From the IMG/VR virus record IMGVR_UViG_3300045999_005738, positions 1-28,220 of that record: a stretch of 28,220 bases of DNA; one strand, given 5' to 3'. The notes under the pieces were generated by a model. That model saw nothing but the letters and a program-made list of their open reading frames with translations. It was not told the origin of the DNA and made no database searches. The translations under genes were made by a program, and so were the position numbers. Below, piece by piece: positions 14,430 to 27,503 of the stretch (positions are counted from its first letter, which is position 1; the number at the start of each line of letters is the position of its first letter). The stretch is from a virus.

Positions 14430-15341
14430 CTATTTTCTGCTCTCTCGGAGACGCCCGATGTACTGGTTGATCGTGTTCGTGACCGTGGTCGGGATGCGGT
14501 TCAGGATGAAGAACTGAGTGATGGGCTGCAGCAGGTGTCGCTGCGGTCCGATGCCATTGCCGCTCAGGCGTTGGCGCATGGTTTGATCACCGACGTAGGC
14601 CGCCTCGAAGGCGCCGCCCGGGGTCACGTCGGACCACGAACGGCTCGACAGCATCGGCAGCAACATCGGCGAGATGTTCGGGAAGATCTTGACCGTGATC
14701 CGTCCCAGGAAGGCTTCCTCGAAGCTCCTCTCAGGCCTGGGTCCGGCCGCTCTGGCCATTGCCAGTTCACGACCACCATACCCTGTGTTGCTATCCCCAC
14801 GACCTCGACGCATCCCCTTCAACTTGACGGAGACCGTGACGCCGCCGAACTTGTTGGTGATCGTGCTCCCTTGGGTGGAGAGATACGCCTTCAGCTCTCC
14901 CGACAATTCGAAGAACTTGTCCGCGGATCCCGGGTTTTTCCTGGTCCCCGGGTACTTCCGACTCTTCGCCCAGTAGTAGCGGTCGGTGAGAGGGGCCCAT
15001 GAGACCGAGCCGCGGGTCTTCGCATTGATGCCGGCCACCGGGTTGCGGTGCATCATCGACTTGGAGTTCATCCCGCCTGGGCGCGATGCATTCGAGGAGT
15101 TCTTCTCCAGGACGTCGAACACAGTGTCCATCAGGAGGGCGGCTTCCGTGTTGGCCGCCAGTCGGATCCTCGCCGCGAGCTTCTTCAGCATCTTGGGGGA
15201 GACCGACGCGGCCTCACCGACGATGTTCTCGAGCACCATGCCGCCCATCGCGTTGGCAGCCGTCTTCATGGCTGTGGTGGGGCGGCGACTTTTGCCGGAC
15301 TCCAGGTCGGTCCAGCTACCCCTGCCTACCTTGATCCTCAT
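14430..15341 (-). CDS. Putative tail completion / virion morphogenesis protein
   Basis: 303 residues from ATG at 15341, which overlaps the preceding stop by four bases (ATGA). The frame stays open upstream to 16070, but that part is the antisense-phase shadow of two other genes. The N-terminal half is helical and basic. Near residues 115-155 is WAPLTDRYYWAKSRKYPG followed by KFFELSGELKAYL, the W-x-P-L ... tG-x-L pattern of phage virion-morphogenesis/tail-completion proteins. It should act at the head-tail junction. The length is greater than usual for that family, with an extended C-terminus rich in Arg and Pro. Confidence 0.5.
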   Translation of the reverse strand: MRIKVGRGSWTDLESGKSRRPTTAMKTAANAMGGMVLENIVGEAASVSPKMLKKLAARIRLAANTEAALLMDTVFDVLEKNSSNASRPGGMNSKSMMHRNPVAGINAKTRGSVSWAPLTDRYYWAKSRKYPGTRKNPGSADKFFELSGELKAYLSTQGSTITNKFGGVTVSVKLKGMRRGRGDSNTGYGGRELAMARAAGPRPERSFEEAFLGRITVKIFPNISPMLLPMLSSRSWSDVTPGGAFEAAYVGDQTMRQRLSGNGIGPQRHLLQPITQFFILNRIPTTVTNTINQYIGRLRESRK

Positions 15342-15853
15342 GCATGGAGCTCGAGGATCCGGACGCCGAGGGCGAAGCTGAGACGGGCCACGCGTCGTTC
15401 GTCGAGCATGTCCCCGATCTGGACCGCCGCTCCGGTGGCGACGACAGCCTGCTCCTGGGAGATGCGAAGGGTCAGGTCGGTGAACTCCCGACGCACACGT
15501 TCCTGCATGACGTAGATGGTGCCCATCGCCGTCGGCGCCCCCGCGGCGCGCTGGAGGCCGGTCAGGGTGTCGGTCGTGGTGCCCGGGCGGGTCCAGACCA
15601 TCTGGCGATCGCAGCGGAACAGGTGGTGGGTGATGTACTTGGCGGTCGCACTGTGGTCGCAGACGAGGAAGTGCTCCTCGCCCAGGGTCTTCAGAACCTG
15701 GCCGGTCCTGATCAGGCTGCCGGGCTTCACCCGACATGAGACCTTCGGGTAGGCGAATTCGACACCGGGTTGGTCGTTGTCGCTGGCGCGATGGATCACT
15801 GCCTTCGTCAGCGGACCGCCGACGATCTGAACTCGTTCCTGGAGGCGGCTCAT
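15338..15853 (-). CDS. Putative head-tail connector (stopper) protein
   Basis: 171 residues. Begins immediately after the upstream stop (TAGATG). Strand-rich N-terminal half with VSCRVKPGSLIRTGQVLKTL and EEHFLVCDHS, then HHLFRCDRQMVWTRPG, resembling the small beta-barrel of phage head-closure proteins, followed by a helical and strand-rich C-terminal part. Assignment rests mostly on position between the adaptor candidate and the tail-completion candidate. Confidence 0.4.
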   Translation of the reverse strand: MSRLQERVQIVGGPLTKAVIHRASDNDQPGVEFAYPKVSCRVKPGSLIRTGQVLKTLGEEHFLVCDHSATAKYITHHLFRCDRQMVWTRPGTTTDTLTGLQRAAGAPTAMGTIYVMQERVRREFTDLTLRISQEQAVVATGAAVQIGDMLDERRVARLSFALGVRILELHA

Positions 15854-16570
15854 CTAGGCCCCCGTGACAGGGTCGGTCGGCGTGATGATGACCATCATCG
15901 TGTAGCCGCCAGTGCGACTGGACACCACGTCGACCGCGCCGGCCAGGACGGCTTCGGCGCGACGGCGCAGGAGATTGAGGTCGATCGGGAAGCGTTCGAA
16001 GCCGACGTTGCCGTCGGTCTCCTTCTTCACCAGAAGGGTGGGGATGCTCGTCAGCAGGTTCAGCACGCACTGGGCGGTGATCGCTGCGTTTGCGCTCTGC
16101 TCGGCCTGCAGCCCCGACTCCAGGGCGGTGGCGAGGGCAGCATCTCCGATCCGGTCCGCCACCAGGTAGTAGGCGGAGGTGATGTCGATGAGGCTGTCGG
16201 GCAGCTCCTCGTCGTCGAGGCCGATGAAGTCCCGCACGGAGACCGGCCCGGCCGTCATGTTCAGCCAGGGGGAGAGCCGGTAGGGGACCGTGGTGGTGAA
16301 GGACTTTTGACCCACGGTGCCTTGGACCGTGACGAACCGCTTGGAGAAGCGCTGCGCGCCTTCGATGGCGTTGGCCCCGGACGGCACGGTGATGGCGACG
16401 TAGCTGTTCACCACGCCGGTCAGGGCGACGGCGATGTAGCCCGTGACGGGCGTCCCGTCGTGGCCTCGGAGGGTCCAGGTCAGGCCGGAAGCGTCGGGGA
16501 CGAACGGCTCAGAGTCCCGTTGGAACGGGACAATTACGGTGACGCCGGTGTTTTCGAGGAAGGTGATCAT
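15854..16570 (-). CDS. Putative head-tail adaptor protein
   Basis: 238 residues. The first about 105 residues look like a beta sandwich (ENTGVTVIVPFQRDSEPFVP, later VVNSYVAITVPSG). The C-terminal part is helical, starting VRDFIGLDDEELPDSLIDIT, which resembles the helical adaptor (HK97 gp6-like) that docks under the portal. The start overlaps the upstream membrane-protein stop by four bases. The N-terminal beta domain would be an addition to the usual adaptor fold. Moderate support from both pattern and position. Confidence 0.48.
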   Translation of the reverse strand: MITFLENTGVTVIVPFQRDSEPFVPDASGLTWTLRGHDGTPVTGYIAVALTGVVNSYVAITVPSGANAIEGAQRFSKRFVTVQGTVGQKSFTTTVPYRLSPWLNMTAGPVSVRDFIGLDDEELPDSLIDITSAYYLVADRIGDAALATALESGLQAEQSANAAITAQCVLNLLTSIPTLLVKKETDGNVGFERFPIDLNLLRRRAEAVLAGAVDVVSSRTGGYTMMVIITPTDPVTGA

Positions 16571-20043: not shown

Positions 20044-21522
20044 CTTGCCCTTTATGACGCCATTCGACTTCGCCGCCTTGCTTCCCGTGGGGGCCAGCGA
20101 CCTTCCGAGGGGGTCTGAATTGGGCGTGACCTTGGTCTCGTCGACCGCGATCGGGGATTTATCCTGGAAGCCTGTGCCGCTCAACTGAGGCGCGGAGGCC
20201 GGAGCCGGCCGGCCGTACACCGTCATGTGGTACTGCTCGTCGGTGATCAGGCCCAGGCTCAGGTCGGTGAGCAGCCGGGCCGACCGGAGGGCCAGCATCG
20301 GTTCCAGCTCGGTCGAGGGCCGCATCTCGGCGGGAGCGAAGGTGCACTCGACGAAGCCGGGGATGCCGTAGACGTTCAGCAGGAAGGTGAAGGCCTGGTC
20401 GTAGAGCTGCTTCAGCGGCACGTTCAGCTGGTCGGCGCTGAGGCTGAAGATGCGGGCTTCGACCGTGGCGGTGTTCACACCCGACTCGCCGCGGCCGATG
20501 ATCGTGGCCATGGTCTTCAGGCCGGCCTGGTTCTGGGCGTTGAAGGTCGCGATGATGCTGTCGATGTTGATCCCGGCGCCGGGGTTCTTGTCGTTCAGGA
20601 TCTTGGCTTCGACGCTGTCGAAGTGGACGAAGGTGGAGTCCGACCGCAGGCTGCCCCAGTTGGCGGCGACCTCGGCCAGGCGTGCCGCGGCGAACAGCTG
20701 CAGCTCGGCCGGGTCTTGCTTGATGGACTCGGGCGCGTTGGCGATGACCACCTCTTCCAGGACCTTGACGTCGATCCGGGGGAAGCCCGTCAGCTGCATG
20801 ATCCGGTACAGGTCGTTGATCACCTGCTGACGTGAGGCGATCGTGTTGATGGCCGAGACGAAGTCCGAGTTCGAGTAGATCGTCGTCGGATCCCGGCGAT
20901 GGTAGGCGACGAAGAAGCTCGGGATGTCGAGGCTGACGCCGTCGCTCGAGCCGGCCACCTTCTGGGTCGGCTTGTAGACGCCGGACGTCTTCTCGTACCA
21001 GAGGACCGAGGCCATATCGATCTGCTGGAGCCGGGTCGGGACCAGTCGCTTGTCGAAGATCAGCTCACAGCCGACCGCGCCCCGGAGCATGAGCATGTAG
21101 CGGAAGTTCTGGCTGGTGGTGGCCAGGGCCTCCTGGAAGGTGAAGCCCTGCGTGTAGTCGGTGGTGCGCCACAGGGCGCGCATGATCTTGGCGAGGGCTT
21201 CGCCGGCCGCCGTGTCGATCTGGCCGTCCAGGCCATAGACCAGCATGGTCAGGGGCGTGTCGGCCATGGTCAGGTAGGCGCCGACGGTCGCCGAGACGTC
21301 CGGGTCGGTCTTGAACAGCTCCTTCAGCAGGGTCTGGGAGTTGTTCGAGATCCGCTGGTCGTAGAGCGTGTTCAGATGCTCCCGATAGGTCGGGAGCGTC
21401 AGCTGGTTCTGCGGGGCCTGGGGCTGGAAGCTGCCAGTGATCGAGACTGGGCCCTTGGGGGCCTTCTTCGGGGTCAGGGCGGCGAAGATCGAGTCGATCA
21501 TGTTGGGGTTGGCGACGGCCAT
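20041..21522 (-). CDS. Portal protein
   Basis: 493 residues, the usual length for a siphovirus portal. It follows terL with a one-base overlap (TGATG). LLKELFKTDPDVSATVGAYL near residues 64-83 resembles the start of the portal core, and the C-terminal half includes GIPGFVECTFAPAEMRPSTE and LGLITDEQYH, as seen in portal clip/stem regions. Portals form the dodecameric ring through which DNA is packaged by TerL and to which connectors attach. Ends in a basic tail (KAAKSNGVIKGK). The stop codon is part of copy 3 of the repeated element. Confidence 0.82.
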   Translation of the reverse strand: MAVANPNMIDSIFAALTPKKAPKGPVSITGSFQPQAPQNQLTLPTYREHLNTLYDQRISNNSQTLLKELFKTDPDVSATVGAYLTMADTPLTMLVYGLDGQIDTAAGEALAKIMRALWRTTDYTQGFTFQEALATTSQNFRYMLMLRGAVGCELIFDKRLVPTRLQQIDMASVLWYEKTSGVYKPTQKVAGSSDGVSLDIPSFFVAYHRRDPTTIYSNSDFVSAINTIASRQQVINDLYRIMQLTGFPRIDVKVLEEVVIANAPESIKQDPAELQLFAAARLAEVAANWGSLRSDSTFVHFDSVEAKILNDKNPGAGINIDSIIATFNAQNQAGLKTMATIIGRGESGVNTATVEARIFSLSADQLNVPLKQLYDQAFTFLLNVYGIPGFVECTFAPAEMRPSTELEPMLALRSARLLTDLSLGLITDEQYHMTVYGRPAPASAPQLSGTGFQDKSPIAVDETKVTPNSDPLGRSLAPTGSKAAKSNGVIKGK

Positions 21523-24455
21523 CAGGCGATCCTTCGTTGTTTCATGTGGGGATCCCCGAGTGTGGGCGTCCGATGGGAGGGGACGCTGACCATTCCCATC
21601 AGCGTGCGCTTGACGTCAGTGCGGGTCATGATGATGACCTGGCGGATCTTGATGCCGGCGCGCATGAGCACGAGGCTGTGCAGAAAGTGGTCCTTGCCCG
21701 TCAGCTTTTCCCAGACGGCCGGCTTGTCATCGACTTCGACCCGCACCTGGTCGCACAGGTGCTCGATGACGACCGGGCCGAGGCTGCCGTAGCCAGTCAG
21801 GCGGATCGGATCGATCCCGTTGATGCTGCGAATGAAGGTGTCGATCGCCGAGGTGCGGTTGATCTGCGCGTAGGCGACGTTGCCGTACTCGTCCTCGACG
21901 ATGCGGACCTGGGAGGGGCCGGAGTACTGGACCGCCATGATCTCGTGGCGCGAGGCCTCCGAGATCGCCATGGCGGTCGGCGTGTACGGGAGGCGGTCAA
22001 CCCCACCGCACACGACGTTGTACTGCCGGCGCAGCTCCTTGATCCGGTCCTCTATCTGCTCGGAAGGGACCTGCTCGAACAGAAAGGGGTGGGCGCGTTC
22101 GCCCTCAATGACCCCCAGGGTGAGATGGCACGTCTTGCCCATGTCGCAGCCCAGAGCGACAGGGACAGTGCTGCCCACGTCAGGCGTCGAGGCGCCAAAC
22201 ATTGCCTTGCGAACCACATCTGGCTCGAGCTTGGAATTTCCATCCGCGTATGGCTCTCCGATGACGGTGTTGTGGAAGACCTTCGGCGTGTCATCGACCT
22301 TGGACTTGAGCAGCTGCTTGATGACGTAGGCCGGCGAGATCCGGATGGTGCTGAAGGGGCGGATCCGGTAGCCGTGCGGCCCCCGGGCGGGGTAGGCCGC
22401 GACCCACTCACGGATCGACGGGTCACCCAGGTTCAGGGGCTTGTGGCACCGCTCGCAGACGAGGTGTGCGCCCTTGCGCTGCTCCTCGTTGAGCGTGTCG
22501 GCCTCCAGGGCCATCAGGTCGGCGCCGTCCCAGCCGGGGATGCGGATGAAGCTCGTCGTGAAGCGGGGCACCTGCCAGTGGCCGCAGCTCGGGGCGGAGC
22601 AGCGGATCATGTACTCGCGCTGGTCCGAGGCCGCGTACGAACTGTCGATGCCGTAGCCGGGGAGGGTGGGGGTCGAGAACTTCTGGGTGATCCCGAAGTC
22701 CGAGTTCTGCAGGCGTGAGCCGTAGAGCGAGATCAGGGCCGGGTCGGACAGGTCGAGCTCGTCGTGGAACAGGATGTCGGCCGGCGTGGAGGTGGCGGCC
22801 CCCTCGGTCATGCCGTTGATGTGGGCCCAGGAGCCGTTGATCTCGTAGAGGTCCATGGCCCGGGTGGGGCTCTCGTCGAACCCGCCGGCGTTGAACGCCT
22901 TCTCACTCGTGACCAGCGGACGGATCCGGGTCTTCGAGTTCTTCTTGAACATCACCTCGTTCGGGAACGTCAGGATGCCGGTGGCGCCGCGGTTCCGGGC
23001 CAGGAAGGCCAGGAACTTGCGGACCTGGACCTCGGTGTTGTGCGTGGGGATCATCCCCTCGCCCGCGAGGAACAGGTGGTTGGGGGAGTCCACCGAGATG
23101 CACCTCACGGGGATCGGCGGTACCGCCTCGATGTTCACGATGCGCCGGCGGAGGGCCTCAGTCGGTCGGCCCTGTGCCTTGGCGCCGAGGCGCTCTCGCT
23201 TACGCGGCAGGAGGAACGGGGCCTCTTCGGCGTATGCGACGAAGGAAACCTCAGCGCAGTCGAGTTTACTTTGAACACGATCCCCGGGCTTCGAGGTGGG
23301 CTTTCTCCACCTCACGCGAGCTTTCCAGCCCATCGAATGGATCAGGTCCACTGCGCCCCGTACCAGCCGGGGGTTGGTGTTGTAGAATGAAGCGCGACCC
23401 TGTTTGGATATGGTGCCGTCGGTGTCCATGAGCCCTGCGAGCAGGTCCAAGCGCTGGCTGCGGGAAGCCCGGAGATACTCCTCGGGGATGAACTTGACCT
23501 GGGCGAGGAGGCCCAAGCGCTTCAGTCGACGGGACAGGGTGTCGTACGAAGTGGAGGGTTCGCGGTCTTCACGACCGCGGTTCTGACGGGCGCACCGCTT
23601 GCACGAGTTCTGGCTCGTCGTCCCCTCGACACCCTTGTCGTGCCCCCGAGGGCAGATCGCACGGTCGCGGGGTAGATTGAACCCCAGCTGAATGGTGTCG
23701 TCCTTGACGGAAGACAGACGAGGTTCGACGCCCCGGCGTCCCAGCTCAGTAGCGTAGAAGCCCACGTCGTTGACGTGGGCCGTTAGCACTGCAGCGTGGG
23801 TGTTGCCGTCGCCCAACCAGAGGCCCAGCAGGTAGGGGTCCACGGACAGTGCCCGCTCGGGAAGATCGAGAGGTTGGGTCGTGGGAATGGCATAGACGTT
23901 GCGGTTACCGCGTTGGAAGGTCTTGGCGAGGAAGGCTGTCCGCAGCACGCCCTCCTTGGAAAAGTCTCGAGGGGCTCGCCCTGGCAGGCGGTGGACAACC
24001 TCACCCTTGAACGGGCTCAGGGCCTCGACGTACCAGCGGTGGTTCTCGTCCGCGACGATCTGCTCTCCGGTGTCGAAGGTGATCCGGTAGCAGGGGTGGT
24101 CGGTGAACACCGGCGAGACGTAGGTGACGTTGGTGGGCGCGCCCTTCTCGTCGAAGATGACGTCGCCCTCTTGCAGCTCTCCCATCGTTGACCAGCCGTC
24201 GGGGGTGGCCACCGGCGTGTTGACGTCGAGGGCCATGCCGACCTGACTTGGTTTGATGACCGTCAGGTCCTCAGCCATGTCGTCGAGCACGCCGCGCTGG
24301 AACTCGTACTGGTCCAGGCTGAACCGCTTCCCACGCAGGTGGGTGTTGGCCATGCACCACTCAGTCATGGACATACCGGCGCCGTCCACCGGGTAGCGGG
24401 CGCTCAGATCCTCATGAAATTGGGCTAGATGTGGGTTGACCGCCATTGGCGCCAC
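21522..24455 (-). CDS. terL: Terminase large subunit (lambda A/GpA type) interrupted by an intein
   Basis: 977 residues as translated; 578 after removal of the 399-residue intein (75-473). The packaging ATPase-nuclease cuts concatemers and drives DNA into the prohead. Walker A reads KPSQVGM|T, split by the intein; the lysine is at the front, as in lambda A (KSARVGYS). Walker B is ILFHDE (561-566). A zinc-binding pair follows (CSAPSCGH at 619-626 and CERC at 667-670). Nuclease acidic residues are likely D771 (GCDMGK) and D820 (GGVDRLP). The start is GTG at 24455, with ATG three codons on as an alternative; neither has a clear Shine-Dalgarno. Copy 1 of the repeated element lies 44 bases upstream. 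The neighbouring plus-strand genes are divergent. Confidence 0.93.
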   Translation of the reverse strand: MAPMAVNPHLAQFHEDLSARYPVDGAGMSMTEWCMANTHLRGKRFSLDQYEFQRGVLDDMAEDLTVIKPSQVGMALDVNTPVATPDGWSTMGELQEGDVIFDEKGAPTNVTYVSPVFTDHPCYRITFDTGEQIVADENHRWYVEALSPFKGEVVHRLPGRAPRDFSKEGVLRTAFLAKTFQRGNRNVYAIPTTQPLDLPERALSVDPYLLGLWLGDGNTHAAVLTAHVNDVGFYATELGRRGVEPRLSSVKDDTIQLGFNLPRDRAICPRGHDKGVEGTTSQNSCKRCARQNRGREDREPSTSYDTLSRRLKRLGLLAQVKFIPEEYLRASRSQRLDLLAGLMDTDGTISKQGRASFYNTNPRLVRGAVDLIHSMGWKARVRWRKPTSKPGDRVQSKLDCAEVSFVAYAEEAPFLLPRKRERLGAKAQGRPTEALRRRIVNIEAVPPIPVRCISVDSPNHLFLAGEGMIPTHNTEVQVRKFLAFLARNRGATGILTFPNEVMFKKNSKTRIRPLVTSEKAFNAGGFDESPTRAMDLYEINGSWAHINGMTEGAATSTPADILFHDELDLSDPALISLYGSRLQNSDFGITQKFSTPTLPGYGIDSSYAASDQREYMIRCSAPSCGHWQVPRFTTSFIRIPGWDGADLMALEADTLNEEQRKGAHLVCERCHKPLNLGDPSIREWVAAYPARGPHGYRIRPFSTIRISPAYVIKQLLKSKVDDTPKVFHNTVIGEPYADGNSKLEPDVVRKAMFGASTPDVGSTVPVALGCDMGKTCHLTLGVIEGERAHPFLFEQVPSEQIEDRIKELRRQYNVVCGGVDRLPYTPTAMAISEASRHEIMAVQYSGPSQVRIVEDEYGNVAYAQINRTSAIDTFIRSINGIDPIRLTGYGSLGPVVIEHLCDQVRVEVDDKPAVWEKLTGKDHFLHSLVLMRAGIKIRQVIIMTRTDVKRTLMGMVSVPSHRTPTLGDPHMKQRRIA
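23037..24233 (-). mobile_element. Class 3 intein with LAGLIDADG homing endonuclease, in terL
   Basis: 399 residues, inserted between Met74 and Thr474 of the TerL precursor, inside the Walker A loop. Residue 1 is Ala, not Cys or Ser (ALDVNTPVATPDGWSTMG), and the class 3 triad is present: Trp67 in ADENHRW, Cys378 in VRCISVDSPNHLFLAG and Thr397 in PTHN, followed by Thr as the +1 residue. In this class the block F Cys is the first nucleophile. Two endonuclease motifs are seen: LLGLWLGDG (135-143) and LLAGLMDTDG (264-273), both with the acidic residue kept, so it may still be mobile. A CPRGH (194-198)/CKRC (211-214) pair between them looks like a zinc finger. Splicing should restore KPSQVGMTEV. 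Confidence 0.93.
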
Positions 24456-24604: not shown

Positions 24605-25096
24605 ATGAGCACACCGAAACCCAGCTACCCACCCTGCACCGACAGCGACGTCCTCGTTTTCCGTGCCCTCGAGCTGCAGCTCGTCGCGCACCCGGACCTT
24701 CTGGACCGCGCCGACTGCCCCTACTCACCGGACATCAAGGCCGTCCTGCGCCGCGCCCTTTCGAGGAGCACGTCAAGTGGTGCTGTGACTGAGCGGCTCG
24801 AAGCCGTCGCCGAGCTTGGTCACGACGACATCCTGGCCGAGATCACCCAGCTCTATCAGGAGCTCCGCCGGGACTCGGTGAACTCGATCACGTCCGACCC
24901 CAAGGAGAAGGCGGCGCTCTCCAAGACCTACGCCGACCTTCTGACCCGGATGGTCACCCTCAAGGAGCGGGGCCTGGGCGTCCGTGACGTCGCCAAGTTC
25001 CAGTCTGCGGTCATGTCTTTCCTCGAACAGATCTGCACGCCCGCCCAACGCACTGACTTCGTTCAGATCCTCGGAAAGTACATCGCCAATGTTTAG
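24605..25096 (+). CDS. Unknown protein, possible small terminase subunit
   Basis: 163 residues from ATG at 24605; the frame is open upstream to 24446, but that stretch is intergenic. Mostly helical. The C-terminal half, DPKEKAALSKTYADLLTRMV then LKERGLGVRDVAKFQSAVMS, looks like the helical oligomerisation region of some small terminases. No other small terminase gene is present in the window, and it is the gene nearest terL, though on the opposite strand. A replication-associated helper is the other option, since its 3' end overlaps the primase-helicase by 8 bases. No catalytic motif; Shine-Dalgarno weak. Confidence 0.6.
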   Translation: MSTPKPSYPPCTDSDVLVFRALELQLVAHPDLLDRADCPYSPDIKAVLRRALSRSTSSGAVTERLEAVAELGHDDILAEITQLYQELRRDSVNSITSDPKEKAALSKTYADLLTRMVTLKERGLGVRDVAKFQSAVMSFLEQICTPAQRTDFVQILGKYIANV

Positions 25097-27503
25097 TTCT
25101 CTCGCGCCGGCCTACTGGGCCGCTGGCCTCCCCGCCATCCCGCTTCGCCACAAGATGAAGATGCCGGCCATCGCGCGCTGGTCCGAGTACGCCAACGAGA
25201 TGCCGTCGGAGGAGCTCCGCGCCGAGTGGCTGCACGCCTACACGGACGGCAACATCGGCCTGCCCCTCGGCCCCTGCAGCAACATGCTCGCCCTCGACCT
25301 GGACAGCGACGATCCTCGGGTCCTGAAGGTCCTGATGGACATCATGCCGCACTCGCCCTGGGTCCGCCGGGGTAAGAAGGGCGCCGTCTACATGTTCCGG
25401 TACAACGGTGAGCGCACCACCCGGATCAAGGACAAGGACGGCAACACCCTCATGGAGATGCTGGCGCGGGGCGCCCAGGTGGTCCTGCCGCCGTCCATCC
25501 ACCCCGACACCCAGCGACCCTACGAGGCCAACTGCGAGCTGCTGTCGGTGCTCGACCAGCTGGTCCCGCTGCCGCGGGAGTTCGACACCATGCTCCGCAA
25601 GGGCCTGATCGCTGCCGGGTTTGAACTGTCGTCGGCCGGCGCCAACAAGGTCAGTGAGTGGGTTCCGTCCGGCGGGCGTGACTCGGCCCTGACGTCTATG
25701 GCCGGGCTGCTCGCCCGGGCTGTCGTCAAGGGTGAGCGCACGCTGCTCGAGGCGATCGGCGAGATCGAAGCCTGGGTCGCCACCTACACCGAGAAGGTGG
25801 TTGGTGACGCGCTGGACCCGAACAAGGGTCGGACGCTGATCCTGAACTTCATCCGTCGCGACATCCTCGAGCAAGCCCGATCGCTGCCGATCCACTGGGA
25901 CGCCGGCATGAGCGACGCCGAGAAGGTCGAGATGAAGACCTACTTCGGCGATGACATGGAGGAGTGGTCCACCGATCGGATCCTCAACCACCTGACCGAG
26001 AAGTTCACCGAAATCCCTCGGACCAACACGACGGCCAGGACGGAAGTCATTGAGGGTGTGCTGGTCCGCCTGGCCAAGTCGCAGTCGCTGACCCACCTCG
26101 ACGAAGACGTCATCCTGCAGTTCATCCATGGGGCCAACGGTCGGATGGTGACGATCGCCTCGATGCGGAAGCGGGTCAAGGAACTGCAGGCGAGTGGCAT
26201 CGCCGGCACCGACCACACCGAGATCGCCATTCACCTGATCAAGGAAATGGAACGGTACGGAGAGGTCAGGATCCATGATGGTGCGTTCTTCCAATGGGGT
26301 GGCAGCCACTGGAGCAAGCTCGAGGACTCCAAGGTCCTTGGGATCATCGCGTCCGAGTTTGGCCAGCTGGCCGCGGCCCGGAAGCACAACGACCACAAGG
26401 GCATCCTCGCCACGGCGCGAAACCAGGTGGCGCAAGGTCTGGCCGATACGAACGAGAGGGGGATCAACTTCGCCAACGGGTTCCTCAATGAGGACCTGGT
26501 CCTGAGCCCGCACGACCCGAAGTACGGCTGCACCTACTGCATGCCGTACCGCTACATGCCTGAGGGCGATGCCCCGCAGCGGTTCCTGGGGCTGCTGGAT
26601 AACTGCTGGGGGTCGACCCCGGACTACATGGACCGAGTGCAGGCTTTGCGCGAGGCCATCGCGGTCACGCTGTTCAAGAAGGCCACCGACATGCAGCGGG
26701 TGATCCTGCTCTACGGCCTGGCCGGCACGGGCAAGTCGGTGGTCAAGGACATCATCGTGGGGCTGGTTCCTGATGAAGTCTGCAGCATGGTGCCGCCTCA
26801 GGCCTGGGGTGACAAGTTCATGGCCACCGAGATGGCCGGCAAGATGATCAACATCTGCGGGGAGCTGTCGGAGTCCAATCGCATCGCCGGCGACCGCTTC
26901 AAGCTGATCGTCGAGGGCTCGGAGATGATGGGCCAGCACAAGGGCCAGCAGATCTTCAAGTTCAAGCCCGACTGCGCCCACTGGTTCGCGTCGAACCACC
27001 TTCCCAAGACCAGCGACACCTCCGAGGGCTTCAACCGACGCTGGCTCATGCTGAAGTTCAGCAAGGTGATCACCAGGGATGAGAAGATCCTGCGGATGGA
27101 CAAGATCATCCTGGAGGAGGAGGCCGAGGCGATCGTGGCCTGGGCGGTGCCGGCCATTCGCGACCTGATACGGAATGCCGACTACACCCTGCCGACGTGC
27201 CACCACGAGTTGATGGAGGAAATGTCTTCGCTGAACAACAGCGTGCGTTTTTTTATTCAAGGCGGCGGGGTGGTGGTGCACCCGTCCGGGTCTCCTTCGA
27301 AAAGCACCTCCGAGCGGGACCTGTACTCCCGATACTATGGCTTCTGCAAACTCACGGCGCATGCCGTGCCTGTGCAGTTGAAGACGTTCCGACAGCTGAT
27401 GACGGAGCTGCAGTCGGAATTCGGTTTCACCCTCGTGACCCAAGCCACCCCCTCGGGCGTGCTCGCTTCGTACGTGAACCTCACACTTGCGGAGCAGATG
27501 TAG
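25089..27503 (+). CDS. Primase-polymerase / D5-type SF3 helicase
   Basis: 804 residues from ATG at 25089, inside the end of the previous gene. The N-terminal domain is a bifunctional primase-polymerase: GNIGLPLG (54-61), catalytic DLD (70-72 in MLALDLDSDD) and the PPS-x-HPDT segment near 134-142. A linker of about 200 residues with D5-N character leads to an SF3 helicase: Walker A LYGLAGTGKS (about 541-550), Walker B INICGELSE (about 588-596), sensor HWFASNHLPKTSD (about 630-642) and arginine finger FNRRW. The C-terminal 80 residues (SERDLYSRYYGFCKLTAHAV) fit the D5 C-terminal winged domain. It should prime and unwind phage DNA at the replication fork. A seven-T run at 27248-27254 is in slippery phase; its meaning is unclear. 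Confidence 0.92.
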   Translation: MFSSLAPAYWAAGLPAIPLRHKMKMPAIARWSEYANEMPSEELRAEWLHAYTDGNIGLPLGPCSNMLALDLDSDDPRVLKVLMDIMPHSPWVRRGKKGAVYMFRYNGERTTRIKDKDGNTLMEMLARGAQVVLPPSIHPDTQRPYEANCELLSVLDQLVPLPREFDTMLRKGLIAAGFELSSAGANKVSEWVPSGGRDSALTSMAGLLARAVVKGERTLLEAIGEIEAWVATYTEKVVGDALDPNKGRTLILNFIRRDILEQARSLPIHWDAGMSDAEKVEMKTYFGDDMEEWSTDRILNHLTEKFTEIPRTNTTARTEVIEGVLVRLAKSQSLTHLDEDVILQFIHGANGRMVTIASMRKRVKELQASGIAGTDHTEIAIHLIKEMERYGEVRIHDGAFFQWGGSHWSKLEDSKVLGIIASEFGQLAAARKHNDHKGILATARNQVAQGLADTNERGINFANGFLNEDLVLSPHDPKYGCTYCMPYRYMPEGDAPQRFLGLLDNCWGSTPDYMDRVQALREAIAVTLFKKATDMQRVILLYGLAGTGKSVVKDIIVGLVPDEVCSMVPPQAWGDKFMATEMAGKMINICGELSESNRIAGDRFKLIVEGSEMMGQHKGQQIFKFKPDCAHWFASNHLPKTSDTSEGFNRRWLMLKFSKVITRDEKILRMDKIILEEEAEAIVAWAVPAIRDLIRNADYTLPTCHHELMEEMSSLNNSVRFFIQGGGVVVHPSGSPSKSTSERDLYSRYYGFCKLTAHAVPVQLKTFRQLMTELQSEFGFTLVTQATPSGVLASYVNLTLAEQM

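Follow-up and report, generated by a model that had tools for sequence, protein, structure and literature searches.

The window analysed here, the whole stretch of 28,220 nucleotides of the IMG/VR virus record IMGVR_UViG_3300045999_005738, very probably encodes the large terminase (TerL) of a Seuss-like tailed phage in which a full-length class 3 LAGLIDADG intein, predicted to splice and to home, lies between the residues matching Tyr82 and Ser83 of lambda gpA (Table 1). Judged from the sequence, it is best interpreted as a selfish element lodged in the packaging ATPase and putatively able to splice and to home.

Table 1. Features of the TerL precursor gene and its intein, in positions of the window.
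Feature	Position	Strand	Evidence
TerL precursor ORF	21522..24455	-	977 aa from GTG; PF05876 GpA_ATPase E=2e-12, phrog_675 terminase E=1e-95
N-extein from Met4, ends IKPSQVGM, the first part of the Walker A loop	24234..24446	-	alignment to lambda gpA and intein-less relatives
Class 3 intein with LAGLIDADG homing endonuclease, 399 aa, 44.5 kDa	23037..24233	-	WCT triplet, homology to 6bs8 and 6rix, AlphaFold2 pLDDT 92.4, PI-SceI match Z 28.1
Cys48, aligned with Cys48 of M. smegmatis DnaBi1, for which alone a redox role is described	24090..24092	-	phmmer-aligned; Cys in 64/67 viral inteins
Trp67, block B position 12	24033..24035	-	invariant, 67/67 viral inteins
First LAGLIDADG motif LLGLWLGDG, catalytic Asp142	23805..23831	-	column D 66/67
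Zinc-ribbon-like insert C194-x3-H198...C211-x2-C214 between LAGLIDADG repeats	23592..23654	-	conserved motif in 16/36 gpA-site inteins
Second LAGLIDADG motif LLAGLMDTDG, catalytic Asp272	23415..23444	-	PF14528 match; column D 66/67
Cys378 (block F, position 4), presumed to act as the initiating nucleophile	23100..23102	-	invariant, 67/67 viral inteins
Thr397-His398-Asn399, block G end (G5-G7)	23037..23045	-	66/67, 65/67 and 66/67 viral inteins
C-extein from Thr+1, remaining ATPase and nuclease domain	21522..23036	-	54-56% identity to Seuss, L003, L004, L005

Relatives of the terminase begin at Met4 and the ATG at 24446 is therefore the likely start; the spliced protein from this residue has a computed mass of 64.0 kDa, in agreement with the about 64 kDa expected in the initial annotation. 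In a Pfam search of the exteins PF05876 scored 47.6 bits (cut-off 25.6) while GpA_nuclease, PF20454, gave no match, and a gpA-seeded profile of C-exteins, which by then included the window and other members, matched the C-extein with 382 bits. The alignment also places the Asp of GCDMGKT in the C-extein in the column of lambda gpA Asp401. The closest terminase relatives are Caulobacter phage Seuss and next the SPO1/Twort-like phages, and on these sequence comparisons the host protein is gpA-like, of a divergent Seuss/SPO1-like branch of the gpA family. The "lambda-type" terminase of the initial annotation fits the GpA_ATPase match and the junction at the lambda position, but needs qualifying in view of the lacking PF20454 match and the divergent Seuss/SPO1/Twort-like branch. 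Since the Seuss genome has terminal repeats of 1,748 bases, packaging in the lambda cos style should not be assumed. A phmmer search with Seuss TerL as query found no related solved structure. Adjoining the terminase, and transcribed divergently from it as in Seuss, is a primase-polymerase/D5-type helicase gene (24984-27503, + strand), and between the head and tail genes of the window lies a 546-aa ORF (14430-16070, - strand) without a match in Pfam, NCBIfam or PHROGs.

The borders of the intein, ORF residues 75-473, are exact to the residue because the intein-less relatives (L004, L005, Seuss and others) stop at residue 74 and resume at Thr474, aligning to residues 1-74 and 474-976 and to nothing in between. 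The flanks are 55-56% identical to the IMG/VR contigs L004 and L005 and 54-55% to the Seuss terminase, and the intein is likewise missing from the terminases of Achromobacter phage JWF, Pseudoalteromonas phage KB12-38 and Xylophilus phage Lumi. When aligned with gpA terminases, the sequence KPSQVGM/T (the slash marks the junction) falls on KSARVGY/S of lambda gpA, i.e. between Tyr82 and Ser83 of KSARVGYSK, so that the Thr at +1 corresponds to the Ser/Thr of the P-loop. The initial annotation, which had placed the insertion between GM and T of a Walker A loop, was accordingly exact in both coordinates and site. The site matches that of P-loop inteins from other terminases, TerL1-a being the classic case (PMC5050341), and DnaBi1 is inserted at a P-loop site as well (PMC6195587).

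A chimeric assembly or other assembly artefact was ruled out by two further contigs. L002, 99.8% identical over 9,148 bases and with an identical TerL, spans both junctions, and L003, which opens inside an intein at this site, continues across the C-junction into its TerL (intein tail of 72 residues 77% identical to that of the window, C-extein 54%). A recent foreign origin found no backing in base composition, GC being 0.647 in the intein and 0.652 in the C-extein and the difference in GC3, 0.81 compared to 0.91, being weak although lower in the intein.

The insertion begins with Ala1, ends with PTHN and is followed by Thr. The class 3 signature consists of Trp at B12, Cys at F4 and Thr at G5 (PMC5222942, PMC3196547, PMC5050341), and alignment with known class 3 inteins places Trp67, Cys378 and Thr397 at these very positions, so that all the residues on which the initial annotation had built its class assignment (Ala1, block B Trp, block F Cys, the PTHN end and +1 Thr) are where a class 3 intein has them. 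Among 67 viral inteins, a sample biased towards the query, the columns of this WCT triplet hold W in 67, C in 67 and T in 66 cases, and His65 and THN of the window intein are present and align with the sample. A phmmer search against solved chains revealed M. smegmatis DnaBi1 (6bs8, E=5e-24), a value which speaks against a chance match, and M. chimaera DnaB1 (6rix, 1e-23), while the class 1 intein gp41-1 was far weaker (5e-7 for the WCT-grafted form and 2e-4 for the native one). The WCT positions, together with the match in sequence and fold to solved class 3 inteins, support the assignment to class 3. This class had been described in the initial annotation as the rarest and as found mostly in DnaB and phage proteins; phage proteins do carry it, but the description understates the phage terminases, as 591 of 50,697 phage records match the window intein (E<=1e-5) and the inteins of mycobacteriophages reside most often in TerL, TerL1-c and TerL1-e being class 3 examples (PMC5050341).

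Both LAGLIDADG motifs that had been annotated are present with both their acidic residues, and LAGLIDADG_3 and Hom_end (PF14528, PF05204) score over the Pfam cut-offs. The AlphaFold2 model, built on the 67-row alignment (pTM 0.90), matches PI-SceI over 340 residues (3.7 A) as well as 6bs8 over 125 (1.1 A, Z 23.8), and confidently predicts a PI-SceI-like, two-repeat LAGLIDADG fold for the intein.

From the chemistry of class 3 inteins we infer the following steps. Cys378, activated by His65 and Thr397 and with Trp67 packed nearby, would attack the Met-Ala bond at the N-junction, after which the acyl group would move to Thr+1 and Asn399 would cyclise, joining the exteins as KPSQVGM-T and restoring the ATP-binding loop of a 64.0 kDa TerL. 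Thr+1 would in this way serve first in splicing and later in the P-loop, and the unspliced precursor would presumably lack ATPase activity. The predicted endonuclease would cut intein-less gpA/TerL genes at the conserved site, and repair would copy the intein in.

This reading has to be weighed against a class 1 intein with an altered first residue, against a dead copy and against a regulatory role. The two classes are not in every case sharply separated, Cys1 being kept alongside WCT in the inteins of Acidovorax phage ACF1 and of L043 and L086, but the window intein has Ala1, the full WCT and class 3 inteins as its closest solved relatives, and Asp62 replaces the block B Thr, which is reported as typical of class 3; the class 1 reading is therefore extremely improbable. 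Cys1 together with the class 3 Trp and Cys was observed in L016 (460-1512), L043 (3001-4146) and L086 (3001-4017), which are possibly class 1-class 3 intermediates, or reversions. An intein could also be inactive despite intact motifs, and inactive class 3-like inteins exist, the one of Arthrobacter FB24 being a pseudogene, though without CysF4 (PMC3196547). Nothing direct points to such decay in the window, where no catalytic position for splicing or for the endonuclease has been lost, the reading frame stays open through 977 codons, L002 encodes the identical protein and a dead intein would deprive the phage of its terminase, making a decaying or splicing-dead copy very improbable.

The third alternative, that a Cys48-Cys378 disulfide makes splicing slow or redox-sensitive and that the terminase, held inactive in this way, times packaging, draws on the ATP-binding loop being split by the insertion and on DnaBi1, a class 3 P-loop intein with slow, redox-dependent splicing and an inhibitory Cys48-CysF4 disulfide (PMC6195587), both cysteines of which are kept in the window intein. 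Cys48 is frequent in the query-biased viral sample (Table 1) and found in about half of 18 reference-phage inteins, while it was called non-conserved in the DnaBi1 paper (PMC6195587). As no Cys48 mutant of DnaBi1 spliced (PMC6195587), the residue may simply be required for class 3 splicing; moreover, the five mycobacteriophage terminase inteins assayed all spliced readily (PMC5050341) and close relatives of the terminase manage without an intein. Control of packaging by the intein, as suggested in the initial annotation, is possible but unsupported, and the regulatory reading appears unlikely. The selfish element predicted to splice and to home is preferred over all three.

The intein of the window is longer (399 residues) than the 18 reference-phage inteins (327-353) because of the zinc-ribbon-like CHCC insert between the LAGLIDADG repeats, which is absent from all 18. 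Neither this insert nor the Cys48-CysF4 pair had been noted in the initial annotation. The recurrent motif is C.RGH.....G...C..C.R, with C, H, C and C invariant in six aligned copies. An insert unique to the window was ruled out when further relatives were found to carry it (L033, L034, L035, L036, L037, L113-L117, L119 and L126, scattered over the intein tree), and of the 46 inteins sampled 19 have it, 16 of them among the 36 at the gpA site and 3 among the 10 elsewhere. At least nine changes are needed on the intein tree, which rules out one ancestral insert retained in every lineage. Searched as a known domain the insert gave no Pfam or PDB match of note, the query being too short for a firm answer, and among phages no match better than E about 2, nor was a published description found. 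HO/WHO were named in 2020 as the sole known intein-zinc finger fusions (PMC7282813). Based on the pattern of ligands the insert may bind zinc, it probably adds DNA contacts, and its scattered distribution is consistent with a swappable DNA-contact module. A wider proposal, of a phage and prophage family of class 3 inteins at one gpA site, in which a zinc-ribbon module between the LAGLIDADG repeats was repeatedly gained and lost to retarget homing and a Cys48-CysF4 redox pair could make terminase splicing conditional, is put forward tentatively and is somewhat doubtful as a whole.

Each scan of a collection for further examples was limited to its 80 best candidates, so the numbers given are minimum values and the sample is skewed towards the window intein. 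Among 79 further IMG/VR loci, an iterative profile search placed the intein in a gpA-type terminase in at least 19, leaving out L098, L103 and L108, which entered the gpA profile late and lie elsewhere in the intein tree, and PF05876 was strong in nine of ten C-exteins scanned with Pfam. On approximately 22 bacterial genome contigs, judged by P-loop sequence rather than profiled singly, the intein site is of this kind too; Trinickia, Methylobacter, Ramlibacter, Neoroseomonas, Hydrogenophaga, Marinobacterium and Anaerovibrio are represented. Phage ACF1 is a public isolate with an intein at the same gpA site. The reference-phage inteins have the full WCT in 17 of 18 cases and most lie directly after the GK of the P-loop. 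In Vibrio phage 1.245.O an Asn is aligned at B12; its terminase has a second Hint-like match near the C-terminus, and a hedgehog/hint gene lies downstream (locus L030, 2258-5134 and 5669-5986). Class 3-type mini-inteins without endonuclease were also observed right after a P-loop-like GK on the viral contigs L008 (1236-1679, 148 aa) and L009 (3001-3468, 157 aa).

The nearest complete inteins are 36-42% identical and hosted in gpA proteins, the C-exteins of which either give no BLAST match to that of the window or match it only in part, at 22-30%. In trees the gpA-site inteins cluster, with the window beside L045 and L129 (bootstrap 86, SH-aLRT 92). As the intein is missing from terminases 54-56% identical but has counterparts, 36-42% identical, in distant gpA terminases, homing is indicated, and the simplest reading of the sporadic distribution and a tree of modest support is that the intein moved into a homologous site by homing. 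The intein of the window is another example of a known and widespread kind; no report of inteins in gpA terminases was found in the open literature, most subscription papers lying outside the search.

Compared with named systems, the intein shares WCT, Ala1, the B-block Asp and His, Cys48 and a P-loop insertion with Ser/Thr+1 with the mycobacterial DnaB class 3 inteins (6bs8 and 6rix), but those are mini-inteins without endonuclease in a helicase while this one is full-length and in a terminase. Mycobacteriophage terminase inteins (TerL1-a to -e, Gaia, Bethlehem/Beatrix; 30-36% identity) likewise combine a terminase ATPase host with a LAGLIDADG endonuclease; they sit, however, in terminase_1/terminase_6 proteins, with the class 3 TerL1-c and -e outside the P-loop, whereas that of the window is in a gpA-type P-loop, and none sampled has the CHCC insert. 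Host family and insertion site are those of the gpA P-loop inteins of ACF1, the Hydrogenophaga contig L129 and the IMG/VR loci L033-L049, where L129 and L045 read KSARVGY/T, the lambda sequence up to the +1 residue; the exteins of this group are ordinary gpA (PF05876 and PF20454) instead of Seuss-like, and the ACF1 intein differs in its Cys1. PI-SceI (yeast VMA intein) has the same whole-length fold of a Hint domain and a two-repeat LAGLIDADG endonuclease but class 1 chemistry, 17% identity and a DNA-recognition region of its own. Yeast HO/WHO resemble the intein in joining an intein-derived LAGLIDADG endonuclease to a Cys-rich zinc finger (putative in the window), but their finger is a C-terminal domain of non-splicing proteins while the window has a short insert between the repeats and intact splicing residues.

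The P-loop of gpA terminases, at exactly Tyr82/Ser83 of lambda, is a recurrent site of class 3 inteins in many phage lineages, and the divergent Seuss-like terminase of the window probably acquired its intein by transfer. The CHCC insert hints at how these endonucleases may shift their target preference, the shared Cys48 makes the idea of a redox switch testable beyond mycobacteria, and the sequenced intein-less relatives offer a compact system for tests of intein homing in a packaging motor.
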